Below are positions 3,681 to 20,928 of a DNA stretch of 22,232 nt, in pieces. Under the pieces are notes generated by a model. That model was not told where the DNA came from. It ran no database searches and saw only the letters and a program-made list of their open reading frames with translations. The stretch comes from Rubrobacteraceae bacterium. Lineage in GTDB: Bacteria; Actinomycetota; Rubrobacteria; Rubrobacterales; Rubrobacteraceae. The translations under genes were made by a program, and so were the position numbers. Every line of letters starts with the position of its first letter. Within the stretch, counting starts at the first letter, position 1. The DNA is taken from NCBI GenBank assembly GCA_030447045.1, contig JAUJMB010000011.1, positions 1-22,232 on the forward strand, in the 5' to 3' direction.

Positions 3681-4574
3681 TTAGGTAGACCCGCGATTCA
3701 GATCTCTTACGGCACGCACGTACTCAGTGACGCGCTCGTCGAGGTCGCGCGGGTAGGCGTAGCCCAGGCCCTCGGCCACCTCGGTCGCCACCCGGCGGAA
3801 CAGCCCCATCGTCCGGAACAGCGCCTCCCAGTTCTCCTCGAGGTCGGCCCCGGCGTAGGTGCCCTCAAGCTCCTCCCAGATCTCCGGCGGGAGCTGTTTC
3901 TTCAGCCCCTTACCGAGCCAGTCGGTGGGCTCCGACCAGCCGCGGTCGAGCTCCATCCTCCACTCCAGCATCCGGCGCAGGTAGACGTGTTTCATGTCGT
4001 AGTCCAGGCACCACTTGGCCGGGAAAAGCTCGTCTCGCAGCAGGCACTTCGCCACGTCGGGGGCGTCGCTGAAGAAGTCGTTGACCCACGTCAGGAAGGT
4101 GCCCTCGTCGGGAGGATCCGGGACGTAGGCTTTGTGGGTGGGTGGGTGCAGGCCGGCGGCGAGGCCGTCCTTGTCCAGGAGCACGGAGTACCCGGCGTCC
4201 AGCTCGTCGGGCAGGGTCGGGGCGGCCGCGATCCTTTGCAGCAGCTCGACGGGCCAGAGCCTGAAGTCGATCTTCAGGCCGTCGGCGTACTGGACGACGT
4301 TGCCGGTCTGCTCGATGCCGTGGTCGGGATCCGGTTCGATCCCGTCCCAGTACGCCACCAACACCTCGCCAAAGTCTTTGAGCCAGGATCGGTCCTCGAA
4401 GAACGGGAGGATGTCCTCCACAACGAGCACGGCGTCGTAGTCCGAGAGCGCGTCCACCGGTGCGTCCGGTCTCGCGCGGGTGCTGGTCAGGAGCATGGCG
4501 CGAATGGGATCCTTACGGCCGGCCCACCGAACCAAACGGCGCAGCACATCGCTCGGGTCATGATTGGCGATCAC
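3681..4574 (-). CDS. Aminoglycoside 6-adenylyltransferase (ANT(6)/AadE-AadK)-like protein
   Basis: The 297-residue protein matches the length and layout of the streptomycin 6-adenylyltransferase family (AadE/AadK), which transfers AMP from ATP to the 6-hydroxyl of streptomycin in the cytoplasm. The nucleotidyltransferase core is visible: LLTSTRA at 28-34 followed by SDYD at 44-47, whose two aspartates (D45, D47) would bind the metal, and a third carboxylate in KIDFRLWP (D103). The helical C-terminal half carries the family's KWCLDYDMKHVYLRRMLEW-type segment (about 186-205) and ends with a YPRDLDERVTEYV stretch. Resistant pathogens usually have GSR at the first motif; here it is STR, so antibiotic activity is not guaranteed. 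The start is GTG with GGGGAGGAA nine bases upstream. It lies 49 bases after the M14 peptidase gene on the same strand and may share its transcript. Nothing suggests a mobile element nearby, so this is probably a resident gene. Confidence 0.82.
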   Translation of the reverse strand: MIANHDPSDVLRRLVRWAGRKDPIRAMLLTSTRARPDAPVDALSDYDAVLVVEDILPFFEDRSWLKDFGEVLVAYWDGIEPDPDHGIEQTGNVVQYADGLKIDFRLWPVELLQRIAAAPTLPDELDAGYSVLLDKDGLAAGLHPPTHKAYVPDPPDEGTFLTWVNDFFSDAPDVAKCLLRDELFPAKWCLDYDMKHVYLRRMLEWRMELDRGWSEPTDWLGKGLKKQLPPEIWEELEGTYAGADLEENWEALFRTMGLFRRVATEVAEGLGYAYPRDLDERVTEYVRAVRDLNRGST

Positions 4575-9120: not shown

Positions 9121-9400
9121 CCCAAAGGCCTAGGCGTCCGGGGCCCCGCGCGTCCTTCCGGGGTCGGCAGAAAGGCGCCCAGATGTGGTGTTTGGGGCTC
9201 CGGGGGCGCACTCCAGATGGTGTCCGGTCCGCGCGAAAAGGTGGCGTAGCCCCATTGCCCGTGATAGGCTCTTCTGACCGTGCGCGCCCGACTCCGGCGG
9301 GGCGTTGCCGAAGGAAGAGAGAGGGGGGACCTCTCCAGGAACGCGCAACGTTGGCGTCGTCAGGGTGTGCCGGAGAACAGCGCGCGGAGGGTACGGGATC
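9121..9400. other. Leader region before VanW gene 1
   Basis: About 280 bases. The open frame of the VanW gene continues upstream to 9305, but that extension lacks family-like sequence. Weak promoter-like pieces occur (TTGCCC at 9255-9260, TAGGCT at 9265-9270) without correct spacing, plus a GAGAGG/CCTCTC inverted repeat near 9318-9335. Nothing here is convincing. Confidence 0.35.
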
Positions 9401-11203
9401 TTGAGCCTCATAAATCGGAAGAAGAGAGAGAGACGAACCGACCGCGGCTACGGGGACTACCGTTCCGGCGGCACGGGCAGGCGGCGCCCCAAGCGGAGCG
9501 GCTTCGCCGGCCCGATCATCATCGCCTGCGCTCTCGTGGCCGTGCTGGTGGCGGCCGACTTCTGGTTGAACTCGGGCAAGGTTCACCGCGGCGTCGAGGT
9601 CGGCAACGTCTCTCTGGGCGGCATGGAGCCGGCCGAGGCCAGGGAAGTCGTCAGGGAGCGGGCGCTCGGCCCGCTGCAGGAGATAGAGCTCACCGGCCCC
9701 GAACGCTTCTCCCGCTCAGCCGAGGAGCTCGGGATGAACTTCCACGTGAACGCGACCGTAGACGAGGCCTACGCTGTGGGCCGCGAGGGGAACCTCCTGG
9801 AGCGGCTGGGCGAGCGCCTCAGGGCCGCCTTCCCCGGCATCACCATAGACCCGAACATCGACTACCGCTCCGAGAGGGTAAAGGCCGAGGTAGAGGAGAT
9901 AGCGGGGCAGGTAGACACGCCGCCCCGGGACGCCACGGTGGAGGTCGTCGGCTCGGAGGTCGAGGTCGGCGAATCCCGCGAGGGCTACAGGCTCGACATA
10001 GACGAGACGATGGCGAGCGTGGACGAGGCCATCGACGGCATGACCGGCGAGGCGAAGCTCCGCGGCGAGGTGCTTGGGCCCCGGATCACGACCGCCGAGG
10101 CCGAGACGGCCGCCGAGAAGGCGCAAAACGCCGTCGCCCAGCAGCTCGTCTTCGAGCACCAAGACGAGAACTGGACCGTCTCCCCGGCCGACGTGGGCTC
10201 CAGCCTCGACATCTCGCCTAACGGCGGCAAGATCTCCGTAAGCCTCAACCGCGACCGCATGAGCGACCGCCTGGCCGCCGTCTACTCCGACCTGACGATA
10301 AAGCCCAAGAACGCCTCCTACGACTTCGACGGTTCCGGCAAGGTCGTCGTGGTCCCCGGCCGCGAGGGGCGCAGCATCGAGTGGGAGAACCTGCTCGACT
10401 CCGTGGAGAACAACATCTTCGAGGGCAAGCGTGAGTACCAGGTAGAGACCAACGTCGAGAAGCCCAAGTACACCACCGCGGGCCTCGAGGCCAAAAAGCC
10501 GACCGAGCTTATCGGCTCCTACAAGACCAACTACACGGCGACCACCGACCAGGGCGCCGAGCGCGTCGCCAACCTCGAGATCGCCTCCAAGGCCGTAAGC
10601 GGCACGCTCGTCGCGCCGGGCGACACCTTCTCGATGCTCGACCACGTCACCGACCTCGACTACGAGAAGGCCCACGTCATCGTGGACGGCGCGGAGGAGA
10701 CCGCCGACGGCGGCGGCCTCTGCCAGGTCACCTCCACGCTCTACAACGCGGCCCTCTACGCCGGCATGGAGATAACGGAGCGCACGGCCCACTTCTCGCA
10801 GTTGCCTTACATAAGGCCGGGCATGGACGCGACGGTCTGGTACGGTGACACCTCGACCGAGGCTGACGACCTGGACATGAAGTTCCGGAACACCTCCGAG
10901 GGCTACGTGCTCATCCAGGAGACCGTCTCGGACGACGGCTACATCTACGCCAGCATCTACGGCGTCCCGGACAACATTGACGTCGAGATGTCGTCCGAGG
11001 AGGTATGGATGACCGATGACGCTTCCAAGTGGGTCACGCACTACGAGAGAAGCGAGGACGGCAAGGTCGTCTACGAGGATTCGTGGGAGACGCGCTACGA
11101 TGCCCTGGAGGACGAGAAGGGCAAGAAGATCAAGACCCCCAAGGTCCCGATCGCCGAGGTTGACGGTACCTACAACGGGGTGGACTTCAGCACCCTGGAA
11201 TAA
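9401..11203 (+). CDS. VanW-domain membrane-anchored protein 1 with two peptidoglycan-binding-like domains
   Basis: A 600-residue cell-envelope protein. After a basic cytoplasmic N-terminus (NRKKRERRTDRGYGDYRSGG) comes one membrane helix (about 36-55), then the rest is outside the membrane. Residues 62-230 and 235-355 look like two copies of the PG_binding_4-type domain often found before VanW. The VanW domain spans about 368-522 with the hallmark GGGLCQVTSTLYNAALYAG (437-455) and PYIRPGMDATVWYG (469-482). A C-terminal acidic and beta-rich tail (530-600) follows. VanW was first seen in vancomycin-resistance clusters, but its biochemical function is not known. I start at TTG 9401 because GGAGG lies at 9386-9390 and the upstream extension (9305-9400) lacks domain features. 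The terminator at 11233-11267 follows the stop. Confidence 0.88.
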   Translation: MSLINRKKRERRTDRGYGDYRSGGTGRRRPKRSGFAGPIIIACALVAVLVAADFWLNSGKVHRGVEVGNVSLGGMEPAEAREVVRERALGPLQEIELTGPERFSRSAEELGMNFHVNATVDEAYAVGREGNLLERLGERLRAAFPGITIDPNIDYRSERVKAEVEEIAGQVDTPPRDATVEVVGSEVEVGESREGYRLDIDETMASVDEAIDGMTGEAKLRGEVLGPRITTAEAETAAEKAQNAVAQQLVFEHQDENWTVSPADVGSSLDISPNGGKISVSLNRDRMSDRLAAVYSDLTIKPKNASYDFDGSGKVVVVPGREGRSIEWENLLDSVENNIFEGKREYQVETNVEKPKYTTAGLEAKKPTELIGSYKTNYTATTDQGAERVANLEIASKAVSGTLVAPGDTFSMLDHVTDLDYEKAHVIVDGAEETADGGGLCQVTSTLYNAALYAGMEITERTAHFSQLPYIRPGMDATVWYGDTSTEADDLDMKFRNTSEGYVLIQETVSDDGYIYASIYGVPDNIDVEMSSEEVWMTDDASKWVTHYERSEDGKVVYEDSWETRYDALEDEKGKKIKTPKVPIAEVDGTYNGVDFSTLE

Positions 11204-11232
11204 TCAGCGTTGGACCAACACGGATCAGAGAA

Positions 11233-11267
11233 AGAGAGGCCCCCGGTCCGAAACCGGGGGCCTCTCT
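11233..11267. terminator. Bidirectional intrinsic terminator, 15-bp stem
   Basis: AGAGAGGCCCCCGGT (11233-11247), loop CCGAA, ACCGGGGGCCTCTCT (11253-11267), a perfect stem. It lies between the convergent VanW gene 1 and the decarboxylase gene. CTTGCC follows on the plus strand and TTTCTCTG on the minus strand, so it can end both transcripts, better for the minus-strand operon. Confidence 0.85.
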
Positions 11268-11308
11268 CTTGCCTATTGAACGCCAAGAGCGGGCGATCCC
11301 GTGGCTGG

Positions 11309-12640
11309 CTAGAGCGTGAGCGCCTTCTGCCCGTTCAAGACGTCCTCGGGCTTGCCGCCGGCGCGGAGCAGGATGGCCTCCCCGTCGAGGAGGAGCACCT
11401 CGGCGGGGGAGGGGTGGCTGAGGAAGCCTAAGTTGGAGGCGGAGTAGCCGTAGGCGCCGCTGTAGAAGACGCCGATCAGATCTCCCACCTCGGGCTGGGC
11501 GAGCGGTATGTTGTTGCCGAACGAGTCGAGGGGGGTGCAGCAGGGGCCCGCGACGGCCACGCCCTCCTCGGGGACTGCCCCGTCCATGCGGGTGAGGTTC
11601 AGGAGCGGGTAGGCCTTGCGGAAGACCTGGCCCATGTTGCCCGTGGCGGTGAGATGGTGGTTCATGCCGCCGTCGGTGACGGCGAAGGTCTTGCCGCGGG
11701 TCTCCTTCACGTCGACGACGCGCGTGACGTAGACGCCGGCGTCGGCGACGAGGTAGCGGCCGAGCTCGAAGAGGAAGCGGCACCCTTCGAGGCGTGGGTC
11801 GGAGCGGTAGCTCGAGACGATCTCCTGCAGGCCCTCCCCGAAGCGGTCCAGGTCGAACTCGCTCGTCTTCTCGAAGTAGGGGACGCCGAAGCCGCCGCCG
11901 AAGTCGATCATCTCTAGAGCGTGGCCGGCGTGGTCGGCGGCCTCGAGCGCGATGTCGAAGATGTTGCGGCAGTGCTCTAGCAGGGGGTCGACCTCGAAGA
12001 CCTGCGTGGCCGTGTAGACGTGGACGCCCCGAAGGACGAGGCTCTCGTGGGAGAGTACCTTCTCCACCGCCTCGGCGAGGTCGGCCTGGTCGATGCCGAA
12101 CTGGCCGACCGTGCCGCCCATGCGCATCCCGCTCCCCATGAGCTGGGCCGCGGGGTTGATCCTGATCCCAACGCCTATGGTTTTTCCGGCCTCCTCGGCG
12201 ATGGCGGCCAGGCGTTCTATCTCGCCCAAGGACTCGACGTTGACGGCGTGGATGCCCTCGTCGACGGCCATCTTTAGCTCCTCGTCCGTCTTGGCCGGCC
12301 CGGCGAAGACTATGTCCTCTGGGGCGAAGCCCGCGGCCCGCGCCACGATAAGCTCGCCCGCGGAGGCGACCTCCCCGCCCGCGCCGGCGCGGGCTATAAG
12401 CGAGCAGACGGCGAGGTTGGGGTTAGCCTTCAGGGAGTAGGCCACCTCGGTGCCCAGGGCCTCCCGGACGCGGCGGACGCGCTCGGAGATCATCTCCGCG
12501 TGGTAGAGGTAGAAGGGCGAGCCGTAGCGCTCGGCTATCTCCGAGACCGGGACGCCGCCCGGGGCGAACTCCCCGCCCTCGGCCCCGGAGCCGCCGAAGC
12601 GGGCGGCCAGGTCGTTGGCCTTATCCGTTTGTGTAAGCAC
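11309..12640 (-). CDS. PLP-dependent decarboxylase of the DAPDC/ODC fold (exosortase-type/BtrK-like, probably not LysA)
   Basis: A 443-residue fold-type III PLP enzyme with N-terminal TIM barrel and C-terminal beta domain. The PLP lysine is K71 in VAYSLKANPN, and the phosphate-binding glycines are GGGFG (248-252). Compared with diaminopimelate decarboxylase, three active-site motifs differ: HIGSQ becomes HVYTATQ (207-213), EPGR becomes ELGR (292-295), and the substrate-binding CESxD becomes CCTPLD (367-372). These are changes expected in relatives that act on carrier-tethered or other substrates, such as BtrK, VinO and the exosortase-A-associated decarboxylase. The start is GTG 12640, inside the last 20 bases of the ligase gene, so the two are translationally coupled; AAGGGGATC precedes it. 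It is the last gene of the operon, ending before the bidirectional terminator. Fold certain, substrate unknown. Confidence 0.85.
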   Translation of the reverse strand: MLTQTDKANDLAARFGGSGAEGGEFAPGGVPVSEIAERYGSPFYLYHAEMISERVRRVREALGTEVAYSLKANPNLAVCSLIARAGAGGEVASAGELIVARAAGFAPEDIVFAGPAKTDEELKMAVDEGIHAVNVESLGEIERLAAIAEEAGKTIGVGIRINPAAQLMGSGMRMGGTVGQFGIDQADLAEAVEKVLSHESLVLRGVHVYTATQVFEVDPLLEHCRNIFDIALEAADHAGHALEMIDFGGGFGVPYFEKTSEFDLDRFGEGLQEIVSSYRSDPRLEGCRFLFELGRYLVADAGVYVTRVVDVKETRGKTFAVTDGGMNHHLTATGNMGQVFRKAYPLLNLTRMDGAVPEEGVAVAGPCCTPLDSFGNNIPLAQPEVGDLIGVFYSGAYGYSASNLGFLSHPSPAEVLLLDGEAILLRAGGKPEDVLNGQKALTL

Positions 12641-14207
12641 TGCTGATCCCCTTGCGGTCGATCTTGCCGTTCGCGTTCTTCGGGAGCTCGTCCCTGACGA
12701 TGATCTCCTTCGGGATCATGTAGGGCGGGCCGTTGTTTATGGCGTACTCCCTGACGGAGTCTATCGCCCCGTCCTCGCCGCCGTCCTTCAAGGAGATCAC
12801 GGCTATCACGTCGTGGCCGACGGCCGGGTTCTCGACCCCGAAGGCGCAGGCCTCGTGCACGAGCCCGGAACCGAGGAGGAGGTTCTCGACCTCCTCGGGG
12901 CTCAGGCGGTAGCCCTGGTTCTTGATCATGGCGTCCTCGCGCCCGAGAAAGTACAGAAAGCCCTCCTCATCACGCGTGACGGTGTCCCCGGAGTACACGA
13001 CCCGCTCCACGTCCAGAAGCTCCGGCGGGGCGAGCGGGTTCGGGCGGTAGGCCTTCCTCGTGGCCTCCTCGTTGCCCCAGTAGCCCATCGCCACGGTGGG
13101 ACCGCGGTGGACCAGCTCTCCCGGCTCGCCGGGGGCCGCCTCCTTGCCCTCCTTGGTTATGACCATGATCTCGGTGTCGGGTATGGCCTTGCCGATGCAG
13201 TTGCCCTGCTCGGGGGAGGAGCGGTGGATCTCCCTCGGGTCGAGGTACGTCGAGCGGAACGCCTCCGTGAGGCCGTACATCAGGTAGATCTTCGTCCCGG
13301 CGGGCTCGAGCAGGTTCCTGAGCTCATCCAGGTTCGCCTGCGGGATGCGCCCGCCGGTGTTGGCGAGGTAGCGCAGGTGCGTGAGCGGGTTCTCCCTGAG
13401 GCTCTTGGCGCCCCGGATCAGGAGCGCCCACAGCGGCGGCACGCCCGTGACGCCCGTGATCTCGTGTCTCCTGAGCGCCTTGAGCAGATCCCCCGGCAGC
13501 CTGGACCGGAGCAGGTACAGCGTCGCCCCGGCCCGCAAGGACGTGGTGAACTGGCTCATCCCGGCGTCGAAGTTCAGCGGCAGAGCCGAGAGGATGCGGT
13601 CCTCGGGCACGTTCTCCAGGTACGTGCTGACGATCTGCGAGCCGACCACGACGTTGCGCTGGCTCGTCGCAACACCTTTGGGCATCCCCGTCGAGCCCGA
13701 CGTGTAGAGGATGGTCGCGAGGTCTATCTCGGAGACCGGGCGCTCCTCCCGGAGTCCTTCGCCCTCGAGGGCATCCGTCACGTCCACGTAGGACTTCGCG
13801 GCGCTTCCCTCGGGCCTCTGGCCCCTGTAGAACGCGGTCTCGATCGTCCCCGGCCCGAGCTCGTCGAGCTTCGACGTGTCCCCGATCATGACCCGTATGT
13901 CGCAGTCCCCTGCGAGGTACTCGACCTGGGGCGCCTTGAAGAGCGGGTTGACGTTGACGTAGGCGGCCCCGATTCGGGAGGCCGCGAGCATGGAGACGAT
14001 GGCCTCCCACGACTTCTCGACGAGCACGCCCACCCTGTCGCCCTTGCCCACGCCCGCGTCGATCAGGGCGGCCCCTAAAGAGCTGCTTTCCCGCTCGAGA
14101 TCCTCGTAGGTGTGTTCGGCGTCGCCGTCGACGATCGCGAGCTTCTGGGGGTCGCGTTCCAGGGTGTTGTGGAGGAGGTCGTGGAGGACGAATTCCGGGC
14201 GGGGCAT
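12621..14207 (-). CDS. AMP-forming acyl/aminoacyl ligase (ANL family, exosortase-A-associated ligase-like)
   Basis: A 528-residue adenylate-forming enzyme that should activate a carboxylate with ATP and pass it to a thiol, most likely the phosphopantetheine arm of the neighbouring carrier protein. Motifs in order: P-loop-like YTSGSTGMPKGV (168-179), YGLTE (311-315), YSGDTV (405-410, ribose aspartate), GREDAMIKNQGYRLSPEEVE (422-441), and NANGKIDRK (511-519) with catalytic K515. The early part (YVNVNPLFKAPQVEYLAGDC) resembles the ligases annotated as exosortase-A-system-associated. The ATG shares one base with the ACP stop codon (ATGA at 14204-14207), and its 3' end overlaps the decarboxylase start. 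No condensation or thioesterase domain is fused, so it is a free-standing loading enzyme. Confidence 0.9.
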   Translation of the reverse strand: MPRPEFVLHDLLHNTLERDPQKLAIVDGDAEHTYEDLERESSSLGAALIDAGVGKGDRVGVLVEKSWEAIVSMLAASRIGAAYVNVNPLFKAPQVEYLAGDCDIRVMIGDTSKLDELGPGTIETAFYRGQRPEGSAAKSYVDVTDALEGEGLREERPVSEIDLATILYTSGSTGMPKGVATSQRNVVVGSQIVSTYLENVPEDRILSALPLNFDAGMSQFTTSLRAGATLYLLRSRLPGDLLKALRRHEITGVTGVPPLWALLIRGAKSLRENPLTHLRYLANTGGRIPQANLDELRNLLEPAGTKIYLMYGLTEAFRSTYLDPREIHRSSPEQGNCIGKAIPDTEIMVITKEGKEAAPGEPGELVHRGPTVAMGYWGNEEATRKAYRPNPLAPPELLDVERVVYSGDTVTRDEEGFLYFLGREDAMIKNQGYRLSPEEVENLLLGSGLVHEACAFGVENPAVGHDVIAVISLKDGGEDGAIDSVREYAINNGPPYMIPKEIIVRDELPKNANGKIDRKGISSAYTNG

Positions 14208-14458
14208 CAGGCAGCCTTGCCCTCCACGAGCGCGGCTATGGCGTCGACGGAGCCGAAGTTCTCCTCGTCGAACTCGTCGTCCTCGACGGTGATGCCGAAC
14301 TCGTCTTCGAGAAAGGTGACGAGCTCGACCGTCTGGAGCGAGGTCATGACGCCGTTCTCTATGAGGAGCTCGTCGTTGGCGACGTCGCGCCCGCCCGTCA
14401 CGTTCTCCTGCAGCCAGCCGCGTATGGCGACCCTGGCGTCCGTGTTGTTTGCAACCAT
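14207..14458 (-). CDS. Acyl/peptidyl carrier protein, 83 aa
   Basis: A small acidic carrier. The phosphopantetheine attachment site is S40 in GVMTSLQTVELVTFLEDEFGI; most carriers have Asp before this serine (DSL), here it is Thr (TSL). The flanking pattern (VELVxFLExxFGIxVxDxEFxExNFGSVDAIAALV) is exactly a carrier protein's helix II to helix IV. Starts at ATG with AAGGAGA, which overlaps the GNAT gene's stop codon twelve bases upstream. Its stop codon overlaps the ligase start (ATGA), so ligase and carrier are made together. It is not next to fatty-acid synthesis genes, so a dedicated carrier for the ligase is the simplest reading. Confidence 0.92.
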   Translation of the reverse strand: MVANNTDARVAIRGWLQENVTGGRDVANDELLIENGVMTSLQTVELVTFLEDEFGITVEDDEFDEENFGSVDAIAALVEGKAA

Positions 14459-14470
14459 CTCTCTATCTCC

Positions 14471-15658
14471 TTATCTGAGCCAGAACGTCGCTTCGCCGTC
14501 GCCGATGTTATACGACCAGCGGGCCACCGACGTCGCGCGCTCGTGCTGCGCCTCGTCGGCGAACTTCGTCATGAGCGTGTTGCGCCGGTCGTTGCGGTGG
14601 AAGAAGCCGAGCCGCAAGAGGTCGCTTGACCGCGGGCCGGTCGGCGAATCGGAGAACCTGTACCGGATGATATGCGCCCCCGCCTCCCGCAGCAGCCGGA
14701 CGCTCTCCCGCAGCAGCGCCCGCGCCACCTCGCGGCGCCCCGGAAGCGCGACCAGGTCCAGGATGTAGCCGTCCTGGCCGCCGGAGACGGTCCGGACCAC
14801 GGCGTAGCCCGCGAGCCCGCCGGCCTCCCGCACCACGAGCACCGTGACGGGCGCCTGGGGCGATCCCGGCCCGTAGCGCCACCTCAGGAACGCCGCGTCC
14901 TTCTCGACCACGCACGAGACGCCGGCGGCCACCCTCTCGAAGAGGACGTCGAAGGACTCGTCGAAGTGCTGGATGGGCTCCACCTTGGGGCCGCCCGCAA
15001 ACGCGCCGCCCAAAGCGCCGTCCATCAGGCGCAGCCCGCCGTTCATCAGGCCCTTGACCGGGCCCGGGATCGGGGCGCGGGGCCTGGGCGGCTGGTAGCC
15101 CTCGGGTTCGGGGGGCTGCTCCATGCCCTCGGGGGACGGGCGGCCGTTGGGGGAGCTCCCGTTCTCCGGGTTCAGGAGCCGCTCCATGGGCCCCGGCATC
15201 GGGAGGCGCGAGACGTTCAGCAGCTTGGCCGCGTACTGGAGCTGGCCTGCGTCCACCGCGCCGAACTTCGACTGGACGCCTATAACCTCGGGCACCATGT
15301 CTAAAGAGACGCAGTTCTCGCAGGTGGAGAAGAACTTTCGCATGAGCATTAGGGCGTGGAACCCGTAGTCCGGGTGGCCCATGTAGTCCCCCGGCGAGTG
15401 GGCGACGACCCGGCGGCCGTTGACCCTGTAGTGGAGCGGTGTAGCCGCCAGGTGGCCGACCACCTCCCCGTCCTCCGTCGCCGCCACCCAGCGGTGGATC
15501 TCGCCGGCCAGCGGGTGGGTGCCGAGCCAGTCGTAGACGCCGTCGTAGAAGCCGAGCTCCTTGACCTCAGGGAGGTAAGGGAACGCGCGGACGCGCAGCT
15601 CCCCGACGCCCCTGGCGTCCCCCTCCTCGAACGGCCTGACCTTCGCCTTTTTCGCCAT
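14471..15658 (-). CDS. Two-domain GNAT-family acyltransferase
   Basis: A 395-residue protein with two GNAT-like halves: an N-terminal one (about 6-155, including the strand-rich WVAATEDGEVVGHLAATPL) and a C-terminal one (about 245-370) whose DAAFLRWRYGPGSP (254-267) is the motif common in large double-GNAT proteins of polysaccharide and envelope loci. The halves are joined by a Pro/Gly-rich linker (160-225). The C-terminus WSYNIGDGEATFWLR is typical of this group. Likely reaction: transfer of an acyl group, perhaps the aminoacyl group on the carrier protein encoded next, to an amine. First gene of the four-gene operon. ATG 15658 has no Shine-Dalgarno sequence (upstream minus-strand bases read CCCTCCTCTCCTAG and are pyrimidine-rich), and a TAG just before it excludes a longer protein. 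Role is inferred. Confidence 0.8.
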   Translation of the reverse strand: MAKKAKVRPFEEGDARGVGELRVRAFPYLPEVKELGFYDGVYDWLGTHPLAGEIHRWVAATEDGEVVGHLAATPLHYRVNGRRVVAHSPGDYMGHPDYGFHALMLMRKFFSTCENCVSLDMVPEVIGVQSKFGAVDAGQLQYAAKLLNVSRLPMPGPMERLLNPENGSSPNGRPSPEGMEQPPEPEGYQPPRPRAPIPGPVKGLMNGGLRLMDGALGGAFAGGPKVEPIQHFDESFDVLFERVAAGVSCVVEKDAAFLRWRYGPGSPQAPVTVLVVREAGGLAGYAVVRTVSGGQDGYILDLVALPGRREVARALLRESVRLLREAGAHIIRYRFSDSPTGPRSSDLLRLGFFHRNDRRNTLMTKFADEAQHERATSVARWSYNIGDGEATFWLR

Positions 15659-15951: not shown

Positions 15952-16004
15952 GAGCGTCCGCGCGTCGCCGCTGTATCATGAAAAGGCGGCGCGGGTCGCA
16001 CTGT

Positions 16005-16012
16005 AGGAGGGG
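16005..16012 (+). promoter_or_regulatory. Ribosome binding site deciding the TTG start of VanW gene 2
   Basis: AGGAGGGG ends seven bases before TTG 16020 and lies inside the longer frame that begins at ATG 15978, so the shorter protein is the one favoured. Confidence 0.8.
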
Positions 16013-16019
16013 CGGACGG

Positions 16020-17501
16020 TTGAAGGAAATAAGCAAGGAAGGCGGGCCGCGGGCCGCCCGGAGGACGGGTGGCGACGGCCAGGAGGCTAACGGCGCGCCG
16101 CCGCGCAGCCGCCGGTCGCGCAGCCGCAAGGATCGCGGCCGGAGGTCGTCGTACGCCCTCAGGCGCGGGATCGCCCTGGTGGCCGCCGTGGCGTGCTTCC
16201 TGTTCGCCGGGTTCGCGTTTTTCGACCTTCTCGCAGGAGAGGGCGGCATCCAGCGCGGCGTGCGCATAGGCGACGTCGACGTGGGTGGGATGGGCAAGGA
16301 AGAGGCCCGCGCGGCCGTGGAGAAGAACGCCGCCGACACCTTCAAGGAGATCTCCTTCGGCGAGGGCCCCGACGCCGTCTCCATGAACGCCGGGGAGCTC
16401 GGCGTGAAGGTCAACGCCGCGGCCGCCGTCGAGGAGGCCTACGCCCTCGGGCGGACCGGCGGCCCCTTCGCCCGCCTCTCCGACGCCCTCGGCGCCTCCT
16501 TCGGCGGGACCCAGATCGACCTCAAGGCCACCTACGACGAAGGGGCGGCCCGGGCGGCCGTCGACAGGATCGCCGGCGAGTTCAACCGGGAGCCCAAGGA
16601 CGCCACCTTCACCGTCGCCGAGGGCGGCGACGTCAAGGTCCAGCCCGCCCAGAACGGCCGGGCGCTGGACAAGGAAGCGACCCTGGCGAACCTCAAAGGG
16701 GCGCTCCGGAACATGAGCGGCCGGGTGCCGCTCGCCGAGGGTCCGGCGCCGGAGCCGGAGATCACGACCGCCGAGATCCAGAAGAGCAAGCCCGAGAGGG
16801 TGATCGGGGAGTACCAGACGGACTTTCTCTGGGACTCGAACCCCAACCGGAAAGAGAACATGAAGCTCGCCGCCGGCGCCGTGAACAACACGGTGGTCAA
16901 GCCCGGAGAGGTCTTCTCGTTCAACGCGCTGGCCGCGAAGCTCGACTACAAGGAGGCGAAGACCTTCTCCGACGGCGGCGTCGGCTTCGCCAACGGCGGC
17001 GGCCTCTGCCAGGTCTCCTCGACGCTCTACATGGCGGCCCAGTACGCGGGGCTCGAGATCGTCGAGCGGGAGCCCCACTACGCGGTCCTGCCCTACATCA
17101 AGCCGGGCTTCGACGCGACGGTGTGGTTCGGCGACGAGTACGGCAATGGGGCCATCGACATGCGCTTCAAGAACACCACCGACGCCCCCATCCTCATCCG
17201 CGAGTGGGTCGACGAGAAGGGCTTCCTTAACGCCCAGATCCTCGGCCAGCCCACGGGCAAGAAGGTCGAGATGTCGACGGAGAAAATCTTCGAGGACACC
17301 ACCCGCGGCATCCGGTGGGACACCTACAAGAAGGTCACGGAGAACGGCGAGGTCACCTTCGACGGCAGGATCCACACCTACACGTACTCCTACAACCCGC
17401 CCCCGCCGGAGGACGGGCCCCACTACGAAACCTCGGCCCCCAGGGTGTCCGGCTGGAACGATCCCGGCAACACCACCGGCTGGGCCGAAGTACCCGAGTA
17501 G
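16020..17501 (+). CDS. VanW-domain membrane-anchored protein 2
   Basis: A 493-residue paralogue of the VanW protein at 9401-11203. A highly basic cytoplasmic tail (RRSRSRKDRGRRSSYALRRG) is followed by one membrane helix (about 50-70). One PG_binding_4-like domain (about 78-245) precedes the VanW domain (about 258-412), which carries GGGLCQVSSTLYMAAQYAG (326-344) and PYIKPGFDATVWFG (358-371). A C-terminal extension of strands and a Pro-rich Tyr-containing end (YTYSYNPPPPEDG) follows. It differs from paralogue 1 by lacking the second PG-binding-like domain. TTG 16020 is chosen over ATG 15978 because of the ideal AGGAGGGG. The serine hydrolase gene follows 45 bases later and is probably co-transcribed, suggesting joint action at the cell wall. 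Confidence 0.88.
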   Translation: MKEISKEGGPRAARRTGGDGQEANGAPPRSRRSRSRKDRGRRSSYALRRGIALVAAVACFLFAGFAFFDLLAGEGGIQRGVRIGDVDVGGMGKEEARAAVEKNAADTFKEISFGEGPDAVSMNAGELGVKVNAAAAVEEAYALGRTGGPFARLSDALGASFGGTQIDLKATYDEGAARAAVDRIAGEFNREPKDATFTVAEGGDVKVQPAQNGRALDKEATLANLKGALRNMSGRVPLAEGPAPEPEITTAEIQKSKPERVIGEYQTDFLWDSNPNRKENMKLAAGAVNNTVVKPGEVFSFNALAAKLDYKEAKTFSDGGVGFANGGGLCQVSSTLYMAAQYAGLEIVEREPHYAVLPYIKPGFDATVWFGDEYGNGAIDMRFKNTTDAPILIREWVDEKGFLNAQILGQPTGKKVEMSTEKIFEDTTRGIRWDTYKKVTENGEVTFDGRIHTYTYSYNPPPPEDGPHYETSAPRVSGWNDPGNTTGWAEVPE

Positions 17502-17546: not shown

Positions 17547-19052
17547 TTGAACCTCTTCCCGCGCAGAAAGATGTTCGCCTCGCGCGCCGAGACCCGCCGC
17601 CGCAGGCTCAGGGTCCGCCTCGGCTCCCTAGCCGCCCTGCTCGTGGTCGCCGTGGGCGCCGTGTTCCTGATCAACGGTCTCTCCGATGGGGCGCCGTCCG
17701 CCAGCCTCGCCCCGCTCTCTGAGGGAGACAAGGGCCCGGAAGCCCGGCAGGGGGACGACTCCCGGCCCGGCGAAGGGGCCGCGGGAGCGGAGCCCGGAGC
17801 GGGGCAGAAGGAGGCCCCGCCCGAGGAGCCGCCGCTCCCGGACCCCGAGCAGAAGACCCCGGAGGCCGCCGCCTTCGTCGCGGTGGCGCCCGAGTTTCCG
17901 GGGGTGACGCCGGAGAACGTCGGGAACGTCTACAGGAGCAGGATGGACCCCTCCTGGGCCTCCGTCCGGTTCACCCCGGAGGGCGAGAGAGAGGACTTCG
18001 TCGTCTTCGCGCACAAGGAGGGGGACCTCTGGCGGGCCGAGAAGTCCATCAGGGCCGACGAGCCCGACTACCCGGACAACGACGTGGTCCCGCTCGCCGG
18101 GGTCCCGAAGGACCTCCTCGACTACGTCTACGAGGAGAACCTCTTCGCCGCCGAGGTCCCCGAGCCAGAGGTGGAGAGGGTGGACGGCCTGCCCGACGTC
18201 GGCCCCGCCGAGGTCCCGCCGCTGGAGCCCGTCCTCGACGACGTGCCTGAGGGCGAGCGGGAGAAGGTAGAAGAGGTCGTGGGCCGGCTCGAGGAGCGGG
18301 TCGAGGGCTACGACGGGGTGGCCGGCGTCTACGTGCGGGACCTGGAGGGGGGCTACGGCTACGGGGTGCGGGCCGACGAGGAGTTCTTCTCGGCCTCGAT
18401 CATCAAGGTCCCCGTTATGGTCGCCGTCTACCGCAAGGTCGAGAGGGGCGACCTGAGCTTCTCCCAGGAGGTGGAGCTCAAGGAGGAGGACTGGGCCGCC
18501 GGCGCGGGCTGGCTGCAGTGGGAGGAGGCCGGCACGAAGCAGACCGTCGGCGACCTCCTGCTCCTGATGATGACCCAGTCGGACAACGTCGCCACCAACG
18601 CCCTCGTGCGCCTGGTCGGCGGCAGCGATCACGTAAACGACGTCGCCCGGTCCCTGGGCGCCAAGGACACCCTCCTCTACCAGAAGGTCAGCAGCGAGCG
18701 GGGCGTCGTCCCCGGGATCGACAACAGGACCACCCCGCGCGACATGGCAAACATGCTCCAGAAGATCGCCGACGACGAGGCCGCGAGCGAGAAGAGCTGC
18801 GGGTACATGATAGACCTCATGCTCACCAACGAGCTCGACTGGTGGCTCGACGCCGGCCTCCCCGCGGACGTGTACGCGGCCAACAAGGCGGGCTGGCTCT
18901 ACCAGGTCTACGGCGACGTCGGCATCGTCGAGCACGAAGGCCGCCGCTACACCGTAGCCATCCTCAGCAAGCACGGCTCGGCCACCGTCGACGAGGGCGC
19001 CCTCCTCATAGAGGACCTGTCGAGGATAGCCTGGGAAGCGCAGGACGGCTAG
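17547..19052 (+). CDS. Class A beta-lactamase/transpeptidase-fold serine hydrolase, membrane-anchored
   Basis: A 501-residue protein: short basic N-terminus, one membrane helix (about 28-43), a long Pro/Glu-rich low-complexity stalk (45-105), a middle acidic domain (108-235) and a penicillin-interacting domain (240-500). The three active-site boxes are SIIK (S284, K287), SDN (345-347), and KAG (447-449) where KTG is usual. The omega-loop region, YQKVSSERGVVPGIDNRTTPRDMA (378-401), keeps the family's TTP but does not show the ExxLN that carries Glu166 in true class A beta-lactamases. A peptidoglycan carboxypeptidase-like or binding role is thus at least as likely as antibiotic hydrolysis. Starts at TTG 17547; ATG 17571 is possible, and neither has a good ribosome site. 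Follows VanW gene 2 closely. Confidence 0.85.
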   Translation: MNLFPRRKMFASRAETRRRRLRVRLGSLAALLVVAVGAVFLINGLSDGAPSASLAPLSEGDKGPEARQGDDSRPGEGAAGAEPGAGQKEAPPEEPPLPDPEQKTPEAAAFVAVAPEFPGVTPENVGNVYRSRMDPSWASVRFTPEGEREDFVVFAHKEGDLWRAEKSIRADEPDYPDNDVVPLAGVPKDLLDYVYEENLFAAEVPEPEVERVDGLPDVGPAEVPPLEPVLDDVPEGEREKVEEVVGRLEERVEGYDGVAGVYVRDLEGGYGYGVRADEEFFSASIIKVPVMVAVYRKVERGDLSFSQEVELKEEDWAAGAGWLQWEEAGTKQTVGDLLLLMMTQSDNVATNALVRLVGGSDHVNDVARSLGAKDTLLYQKVSSERGVVPGIDNRTTPRDMANMLQKIADDEAASEKSCGYMIDLMLTNELDWWLDAGLPADVYAANKAGWLYQVYGDVGIVEHEGRRYTVAILSKHGSATVDEGALLIEDLSRIAWEAQDG

Positions 19053-19356: not shown

Positions 19357-20928
19357 TCAGGCGCGGCGCCTCAGGAGCCCGGCCACGGACTTCAGCTCCT
19401 CCGTGCGCAGCACGAACGCGACACCGAGGTAGGCGGCCATGGAGGCGCCGCCGACCGTTAGGAGGACGAGGAGCCGGCCGGCGAAGTCCGAGCCGGTGCC
19501 GAGTAGGGAGGTGCCGGCGAGGGCGACGGCGTACATGACGGCGCCGGCGGCCAGCATCTTGGCGAGCGAGGCGAGGAGGCGGCGGCCGTCGATGCGGCCT
19601 ATCTCCCGGCGGGTCGTGACGAGGGCGAGGACCGCGAGCACGGCGTAGGCGATGGAGAGGGCCAGCACGACGCCGACGGCCTCAAAGAGATGGGAGAGGC
19701 CGTAGGCGAGGGCCGCGTAGACAAAGAGGATGCCGACGTTCAGGAGGGCCGGGGTCTTGGTGTTCTGGCGCGAGTAGAAGGCGCGGACGAGGAAGAAGTA
19801 CGCCGAGTAGCCCAGCAGGCCCACCGAGTAGGCGACGAGCAGGGCGGCGACCGCCCGGGTATCGGAGGCCTCGAACTCGCCCCGCTGGTAGAGGAGGCCC
19901 ACGATGGGTTGGGCGAGCACGACCATGCCGACCGTGGACGGCACCACGACGAAGAGCATGGTCCTGAGCCCGAAAGAGAACGTCTCCCTGTAGCCCTCGG
20001 CGTCCTCCCTGGAGTGCTTCTCGGAGAGCTCCGGCATCAGGGCGGTGGCTATGGAGACCACGAAGATGCCGTAGGGCAGGGAGAATATGGTGAACGCGTA
20101 GGTCAGGTCCGCGTAGGCGCCGTAGCGGGTGGCGAGGTGCGCGGCCACGAGCTGGAAGAGGACGGACGCCGCCACCAGCACGACCATCGGCCCCGCCAGC
20201 TTGGCGGTCGGCAGCAGGGCGGGGTGCCCGAGCTGCGGGCGGGGCCTGTAGCCGAGGGCGAGCAGCGTGGGGACCAGGGCGAGCGCCATTACCGCGACCC
20301 CGACCGTCACCCCGAAGGCGAGCACGTAGAGGGCCAGGGAGCGGTCTGCGTCGCGCAAAAAGAAGAAGGCGACAAAGGAGCCTATGATGATCAGGTTGTT
20401 CAGCACGGGCGCGAAGGTCGGCAGGAAGAACCGCCTGTGCGCCTGGAGCACCCCGGTCGCGATGGTGGTCACGCCGTAGAAGACCATCTGCAGGGCGAAG
20501 ATGCGGAAGAAGAACACCGCGTAGCCCTCGGCCTGCCGCACCTCCGCGGGAGAGAGCGTCGAGGCCTCCCAGTCGCTGACGAGCGCCACGAGGGGCCCGG
20601 CGAAGACGATCCCCGCGAGGGCCAGAAACCCCATGAGCGGCAGGACCAGGGTGAAGAGGGCGTTCGTCAGGCGGCGGGCGTCGTCCTCGCCGTGGGACGT
20701 CATCCTCTCCACGAGCACCGGGATAAAGATCGAGTACAAGATGCCGCCGATGAAGAGCTCGTAGATCAGGCTGGGCAAGAGAATGGCGACGGCGTAGGCC
20801 TGCGCCACCACGGCCCCCGCCCCCGCGCCGAGCGCCGCCGCCTGCGCCGACCACCGCAGGTACCCCGTCGCCCGCGACAAGACCGTCGCCGCGGAGATGG
20901 AGAGCACCGACCGCAGAATTCCGGTCAA
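19357..20928 (-). CDS. murJ: Lipid II flippase MurJ (MviN family)
   Basis: A 523-residue multi-pass protein of the MOP superfamily that flips lipid II across the membrane for peptidoglycan synthesis. The length and about fourteen hydrophobic helices fit. The conserved start is visible: SRATGYLRWSAQAA with R19 and R25 at the positions where MurJ proteins have SRxxGxxRD (the Asp is Trp here), then the small-residue helix AGAVVAQAYAVAILLPSLIYELFIGGILYSIFIPVL. A second MurJ-typical stretch is YGIFVVSIATALMPELSEKHS. The start is TTG 20928 with no strong ribosome site; instead a GCCGCC-ttc-GGCGGC hairpin (20937-20951) lies just upstream. Other transporters of this superfamily (Wzx-like) are possible, but the SRxxGxxR motif and absence of polysaccharide genes favour MurJ. 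Confidence 0.9.
   Translation of the reverse strand: MTGILRSVLSISAATVLSRATGYLRWSAQAAALGAGAGAVVAQAYAVAILLPSLIYELFIGGILYSIFIPVLVERMTSHGEDDARRLTNALFTLVLPLMGFLALAGIVFAGPLVALVSDWEASTLSPAEVRQAEGYAVFFFRIFALQMVFYGVTTIATGVLQAHRRFFLPTFAPVLNNLIIIGSFVAFFFLRDADRSLALYVLAFGVTVGVAVMALALVPTLLALGYRPRPQLGHPALLPTAKLAGPMVVLVAASVLFQLVAAHLATRYGAYADLTYAFTIFSLPYGIFVVSIATALMPELSEKHSREDAEGYRETFSFGLRTMLFVVVPSTVGMVVLAQPIVGLLYQRGEFEASDTRAVAALLVAYSVGLLGYSAYFFLVRAFYSRQNTKTPALLNVGILFVYAALAYGLSHLFEAVGVVLALSIAYAVLAVLALVTTRREIGRIDGRRLLASLAKMLAAGAVMYAVALAGTSLLGTGSDFAGRLLVLLTVGGASMAAYLGVAFVLRTEELKSVAGLLRRRA

Follow-up and report, generated by a model that had tools for sequence, protein, structure and literature searches.

The contig JAUJMB010000011.1 of a Rubrobacteraceae bacterium (assembly GCA_030447045.1; class Rubrobacteria, phylum Actinomycetota) carries, within the 22,232 nucleotides analysed here (the window), a four-gene minus-strand operon encoding a tandem-GNAT protein, an acyl/aminoacyl carrier protein (ACP), an adenosine monophosphate (AMP)-forming ligase and a pyridoxal phosphate (PLP) decarboxylase (Table 1). 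An earlier interpretation made from the letters of this DNA, hereafter the sequence-only reading, described four packed genes at 11309-15658, and all four open reading frames are found there. The 12-base gap between the GNAT and ACP genes and the 20-base overlap between the ligase and decarboxylase genes (12621-12640) are as described; the ACP and ligase genes, for which an ATGA overlap had been given, instead meet in TGATG and share a single base. The spacer between the GNAT stop and the ACP start holds an AAGGAG-type ribosome site, and the GTG start of the decarboxylase coincides with the start site of aligned relatives. The operon was thought to end at a bidirectional terminator, and a strong 18-pair hairpin is indeed located between it and the convergent VanW gene, with a minus-strand fold of -58.5 kcal/mol where shuffled sequences give -39 +/- 3.8 (z -5.1, and z -3.8 for the plus strand). 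The VanW, serine hydrolase and MurJ neighbours are each recovered by Pfam, and searches for RNA families and tRNAs returned none in the window.

Table 1. Position and basis of assignment of the operon genes and neighbouring features in the window
Feature	Position	Strand	Basis or proposed role
Tandem-GNAT transferase, 395 amino acids	14471..15658	-	Proposed to transfer a carrier-bound aminoacyl group to an amine
Acyl/aminoacyl carrier protein (ACP), 83 amino acids	14207..14458	-	Ser40 attachment site; PF00550
AMP-forming amino-acid ligase, 528 amino acids	12621..14207	-	TIGR03098 score, Asp214, YGLTEAFRSTYL loop
PLP decarboxylase, alanine-racemase fold, 443 amino acids, GTG start	11309..12640	-	TIGR03099 score, BtrK match, tree, motifs
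18-bp hairpin, likely bidirectional terminator	about 11231..11269		Folding z-scores and consensus scan sites, both strands
VanW1, PG_binding_4 and VanW	9365..11203	+	PF12229, PF04294; start codon uncertain, longest open reading frame from 9305
VanW2, PG_binding_4 and VanW	15978..17501	+	PF12229, PF04294
Serine hydrolase, class A beta-lactamase / D,D-peptidase fold	17547..19052	+	PF13354, 204 bits; SIIK, SDN and KAG motifs
MurJ-type lipid II flippase	19357..20928	-	PF03023, 284.8 bits

The decarboxylase matches Orn_Arg_deC_N in Pfam, and its best match in the PDB is BtrK of butirosin biosynthesis, which converts carrier-bound glutamate (glutamyl-BtrI) to gamma-aminobutyryl (GABA)-BtrI (available part of PMC7857480). 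The sequence-only reading required that the enzyme not group within the lysine-pathway decarboxylase LysA, and in a tree of 30 rows, 5 of them LysA, the LysA clade splits off at 100/100 with the window protein outside it. The Rubrobacter decarboxylases form their own 100/100 clade, grouped with BtrK, exosortase-A-type and other carrier-linked enzymes, a group in which the branching order is poorly resolved and several branches are long. The NDLxRPxLY and CES/CET motifs of the five LysA rows are replaced in 13/13 Rubrobacter enzymes by NHHL.ATGNMGQVFRK.YP and CTP, close to the motifs of BtrK and the exosortase-A-type enzymes; a distant row (G129) has neither BtrK-like motif, and the Paracoccus enzyme has CTS in place of CTP. 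The ligase and decarboxylase families associated with exosortase A, TIGR03098 and TIGR03099, are the closest by score. However, membership in them has to be rejected, as the ligase reaches 563.2 bits against a curated cut-off of 592.35 and the decarboxylase 424.3 against 478.45; among 13 decarboxylase homologues, the window's own enzyme has the best TIGR03099 E-value. Exosortase (PF09721) was found in 0/39 genomes of the class, including all 24 that carry the operon. A BtrK-type decarboxylase requires that the alpha-amino and alpha-carboxyl groups of its residue both be free, so the residue loaded here is expected to be an amino-dicarboxylic acid attached through its side chain.

The ACP is a stand-alone carrier protein (PF00550, PP-binding, 22.4 bits, cut-off 20.8), and its predicted Ser40 site lies in a T39-S40-L41 triplet that is invariant in 15/15 aligned homologues. 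The ligase matches AMP-binding in Pfam, its best relatives among solved structures are adenylation domains for amino acids, and Asp214 is retained at the amino-group-binding position. Its specificity loop YGLTEAFRSTYL is identical in 13/13 Rubrobacter ligases, recurs unchanged in the Aureimonas, S. meliloti, Shinella and Paracoccus enzymes, and is common to the exosortase-A-type ligases; it was not found in three Rahnella ligases. This identity suggests that the Rubrobacter, Aureimonas, S. meliloti, Shinella and Paracoccus enzymes probably use one substrate. Relative to two LgrA alpha-amino-acid domains, it is shortened by two residues in these enzymes, and it contains an Arg; a short loop with a basic residue is a feature of VinN-type beta-amino-acid enzymes (available part of PMC11253843).

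The double-GNAT assignment of the first gene is upheld by a structure model, in which the tandem GNAT is seen, and by a match to Acetyltransf_1 (PF00583) of 25.9 bits (cut-off 20.7), whereas the 22.2 bits of Acetyltransf_9 fall short of its cut-off (25). The nearest fold is that of N-myristoyltransferase, and FemX is not among the 50 structure matches listed for the model. Searching the PDB by sequence gave just four weak matches, with E between 0.15 and 0.89, a profile search gave none, and PF02388 is not among the families listed at E 10 for 21 GNAT homologues. All 21 aligned homologues share a C-terminal motif, WSY.(I/V/L)GDGE..FW (window 14480-14518), which may resemble a GDG motif of N-myristoyltransferases.

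The four genes were expected to stay together in relatives, and apart from contig breaks they are inherited all-or-none in 39 class genomes other than the window's own, 24 with the operon and 15 without. At presence thresholds of E 1e-3 (GNAT), 1e-60 (decarboxylase), 1e-120 (ligase) and 1e-15 (ACP), GNAT and decarboxylase are present in the identical 24 genomes; 23 genomes have the ligase and 22 the ACP. The ligase is missing from G025 and the ACP from G022 and G034, all of them genomes with a contig break at the operon, and profile searches found none of the four genes in the remaining 15/39. Ligase and decarboxylase are single-copy, save for a second, partial decarboxylase match in G022, while GNAT copies number one to four per genome (a fifth, short fragment in G026 was left out). 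A GNAT profile scan gave 28 named loci, the closest with 87-90% GNAT identity to the window. The order GNAT-ACP-ligase holds in 19 of them, with the decarboxylase also present in 18 and the nineteenth contig stopping inside the ligase; two others stop inside the ACP, and seven have a GNAT without the other three genes in the stretch examined. Fifteen GNAT loci have neither ligase nor decarboxylase within 3 kb; five of them adjoin FemAB, and others lie on broken operon contigs or have class E sortases, with or without VanW, or sulfatase-family genes as neighbours. A 205-kb plasmid of R. tropicus (L134, 3329-16714) carries a GNAT copy between two VanW genes, with three class E sortases, two sulfatases, an arylsulfotransferase and UppP nearby. 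In two loci (L004 and L114) the donor genes are 89-95% identical to those of the window and the GNAT only 61-62%, an apparent swap of the transferase within the operon.

A large protein search gave 1183 GNAT homologues, of which the best 120 were considered. No comparable GNAT was found outside the class among 396 genomes of the phylum, where E 1e-5 admits two matches (2e-9 and 4e-8). The decarboxylase profile (E 1e-60) finds six matches outside the class in the same set, namely one in a ligase/decarboxylase pair at 42% identity in another actinobacterium (G170, locus L125), the distant G129 enzyme and four members of the LysA clade; the two of these four that were scanned both score above the LysA cut-off. 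The G170 decarboxylase, at 568.9 bits, exceeds the TIGR03099 cut-off.

The operon lies among cell wall genes. VanW1 and VanW2 each have a hydrophobic N-terminal stretch (one in VanW1) and a GGGxC motif followed by a His, and with PG_binding_4, VanW and the conserved Cys/His both have the features of predicted L,D-transpeptidases. VanW proteins with PG_binding_4 are L,D-transpeptidases in C. difficile, a recently recognised family (available parts of PMC12729407 and PMC11986978), and some VanW proteins are inactive (PMC12729407, same part). A VanW gene is present within 3 kb of the decarboxylase in 19/24 operon genomes and MurJ within 12 kb in 15/24, MurJ being on a separate contig in the other nine; the MurJ surroundings of 12 operon-less genomes (9-20 kb each) gave no match to the VanW or hydrolase proteins of the window. 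A FemAB gene adjoins the operon or GNAT genes in 14/24 operon genomes, and these neighbours score above the PF02388 cut-off and have the FemX fold, which makes them FemX-like. No FemAB above the cut-off was found in 8/24, including Rubrobacter tropicus (G026), and a stand-alone FemAB is present in 13/15 operon-less genomes. One locus (L002) retains a broken C-terminal remnant of an operon-associated FemAB gene between VanW2 and GNAT (9297-9857), and no such remnant was found in the window, L001, L004 or L114. Elsewhere in the window, a streptomycin adenylyltransferase family gene (PF04439, 222 bits) occupies 3681-4574.

Together, these data support the earlier proposal that a carrier-based system adds a decarboxylated amino acid to an envelope polymer, and we narrow the polymer to peptidoglycan because of the linked FemX-type genes, VanW and MurJ. 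We hypothesize, with a probability of roughly 0.45, that the operon encodes a tRNA-free carrier-protein route by which a peptidoglycan precursor receives a decarboxylated amino acid. The ligase would adenylate the side-chain carboxylate of an amino-dicarboxylic acid, with glutamate the likeliest candidate followed by aspartate, and load the activated residue onto the phosphopantetheine of Ser40. The decarboxylase would then strip the alpha-carboxylate from the tethered residue, in a reaction like that of BtrK, to give GABA-S-ACP or beta-alanyl-S-ACP. Subsequently, the tandem GNAT would transfer the group from the ACP to an amine, as its fold and context suggest; the context further points to an amine carried by the stem peptide of a lipid-linked precursor of the wall, either the Lys side chain or a residue added by the linked FemX-like enzyme. 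MurJ would export the modified precursor, the VanW enzymes may cross-link it, and the single donor module of each genome may supply one to four GNAT transferases. The families involved lend good support to the donor chemistry of ligase, carrier and carrier-bound decarboxylation, which we consider likely; given this chemistry, a wall precursor is the acceptor best supported by context, at somewhat better than even odds. Rubrobacterales peptidoglycan has been described as L-Lys<-L-Ala (available part of PMC3035278) and as containing L-Lys or meso-diaminopimelate (meso-DAP) depending on the species (available part of PMC6834744), and GABA has been found in a Leucobacter wall (available part of PMC4148977). 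We tentatively suggest that the bridge of Rubrobacteria could consist in part of GABA or beta-alanine made on the ACP and transferred by the tandem GNAT, and that in the clade of the window this route could replace the aminoacyl-tRNA/FemX pathway.

Several observations weigh against the peptidoglycan proposal. The genomes are related and mostly drafts, so that the counts are not independent and absences are possibly gaps. A reading of the GNAT as a divergent FemAB has no support (hhalign probability 1.3, no sequence homology), and by a pattern search its CoA (coenzyme A) loop appears to be missing. The ligase pocket does not discriminate between Glu and Asp; where VinN has Phe231, 12/13 ligases have Ala at position 215 and L019 has Tyr. 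Five of the 24 operon genomes have no VanW within 3 kb (two at 4-6 kb and three, G039 included, with none on the contig), and R. marinus (G001) and G030 have the operon with FemAB only far away. Class E sortases adjoin GNAT copies in R. tropicus and G018, and sulfatase-family genes do so at three places in G035, G036 and G037 (loci L138 = L007, L139 = L009, and L025), the GNATs of L138 and L139 being flanked on both sides and one neighbour being verified as PF00884; therefore, the acceptor may vary. Finally, the nearest ligase/decarboxylase pairs in a plasmid collection, those of Aureimonas, S. meliloti and Shinella, are situated in polysaccharide loci.

These polysaccharide loci, the Paracoccus relatives encoded between family-61 glycosyltransferase genes in the same collection, and the sulfatase-family neighbours of some GNAT copies would all fit the same carrier chemistry acting on a surface glycan, a teichoic-type polymer or another envelope molecule that is not peptidoglycan. 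We regard such an acceptor as unlikely, since FemX-type genes are linked in 14/24 operon genomes and VanW/MurJ in most, and no glycosyltransferase family was detected among the nine window neighbours scanned with Pfam. The hypothetical genes beside the Aureimonas, S. meliloti and Shinella pairs yielded no family that would account for a transferase. The ligase and ACP might also carry a fatty or other acyl group, with the decarboxylase making a free amine that the GNAT acylates to an N-acyl amine or aminolipid. While the ligase scores 276 bits with acyl-CoA ligases (NF004837), the best, weak NCBIfam match of the ACP is an ornithine-lipid ACP (44.4 bits, cut-off 130) and the GNAT fold is nearest to N-myristoyltransferase, the retained amino-acid-binding Asp, the amino-acid adenylation domains as best solved relatives and the grouping of the decarboxylase with carrier-linked enzymes make this improbable.

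A diffusible secondary metabolite, made beside envelope genes by accident, would be consistent with the logic shared by butirosin and vicenistatin biosynthesis and with a decarboxylase/ACP relative that adjoins a nonribosomal peptide synthetase (NRPS) gene in Streptomyces decoyicus. However, the operon is kept together beside wall genes in 24 genomes, and apart from the ligase and ACP themselves, the window proteins scanned gave no match to a polyketide or NRPS assembly-line family, so that we give this explanation little credence. That the decarboxylase serves as a second LysA in the lysine pathway, and that the genes are grouped without joint function, is barely conceivable. Its TIGR01048 score of 292.6 is only just below the cut-off of 297.9, but LysA identity is rejected by the separate clade, the lost DAP-site motifs and an authentic LysA elsewhere in R. 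marinus, and the all-or-none inheritance argues against a chance grouping.

Among known systems, BtrJ/BtrI/BtrK of butirosin biosynthesis likewise combine a ligase, a free carrier and an alanine-racemase-fold decarboxylase (for BtrJ and BtrI, the likeness is by description), and BtrK shares the CTP motif. In contrast to this system, where the group goes to an aminoglycoside, the Rubrobacter operon lies amid wall genes, its proposed transferase is a tandem GNAT and its decarboxylases form a clade of their own. The proposed task, transfer of an aminoacyl group to a stem-peptide amine, resembles that of FemX/FemAB, which share the general tandem-GNAT architecture. FemX uses aminoacyl-tRNA, whereas the operon GNAT, which has no sequence similarity to these proteins, would use an ACP thioester. 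DltA/DltC-dependent D-alanylation also relies on a ligase and a carrier to supply an envelope modification, with the MBOAT protein DltB. The Rubrobacter operon differs in its decarboxylase, its GNAT as transferase and its low scores with DltA models (170-182 bits, cut-offs 476 and 559.85). VinN/VinL/VinO of vicenistatin biosynthesis have in common with it the VinN-type features of the ligase, a conserved Asp and the shortened beta13-beta14 loop with a basic residue (VinN by description, in the available part of PMC11253843), but the Phe231 of VinN is not retained and a polyketide context is absent in the window.

A literature search of titles and abstract openings, with most subscription journals outside its scope, returned no description of the operon, and its link to peptidoglycan is new here. 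Four genes inherited together in a group of soil and marine bacteria appear to produce a trimmed amino acid on a small carrier protein and add it to a building block of the envelope, most likely of the cell wall, and since R. tropicus and R. marinus are cultured isolates this can be tested directly. Wall cross-bridges are known to be built from aminoacyl-tRNA by Fem ligases or by ATP-grasp ligases. If the proposal is correct, the operon would represent a third bridge-building route, in which a carrier protein is the donor and its amino acid is decarboxylated beforehand; it could account for the entry of non-coded residues such as GABA into a wall, and it would point to a role, open to testing, for the sets of ligase, ACP and decarboxylase in exosortase-A clusters.
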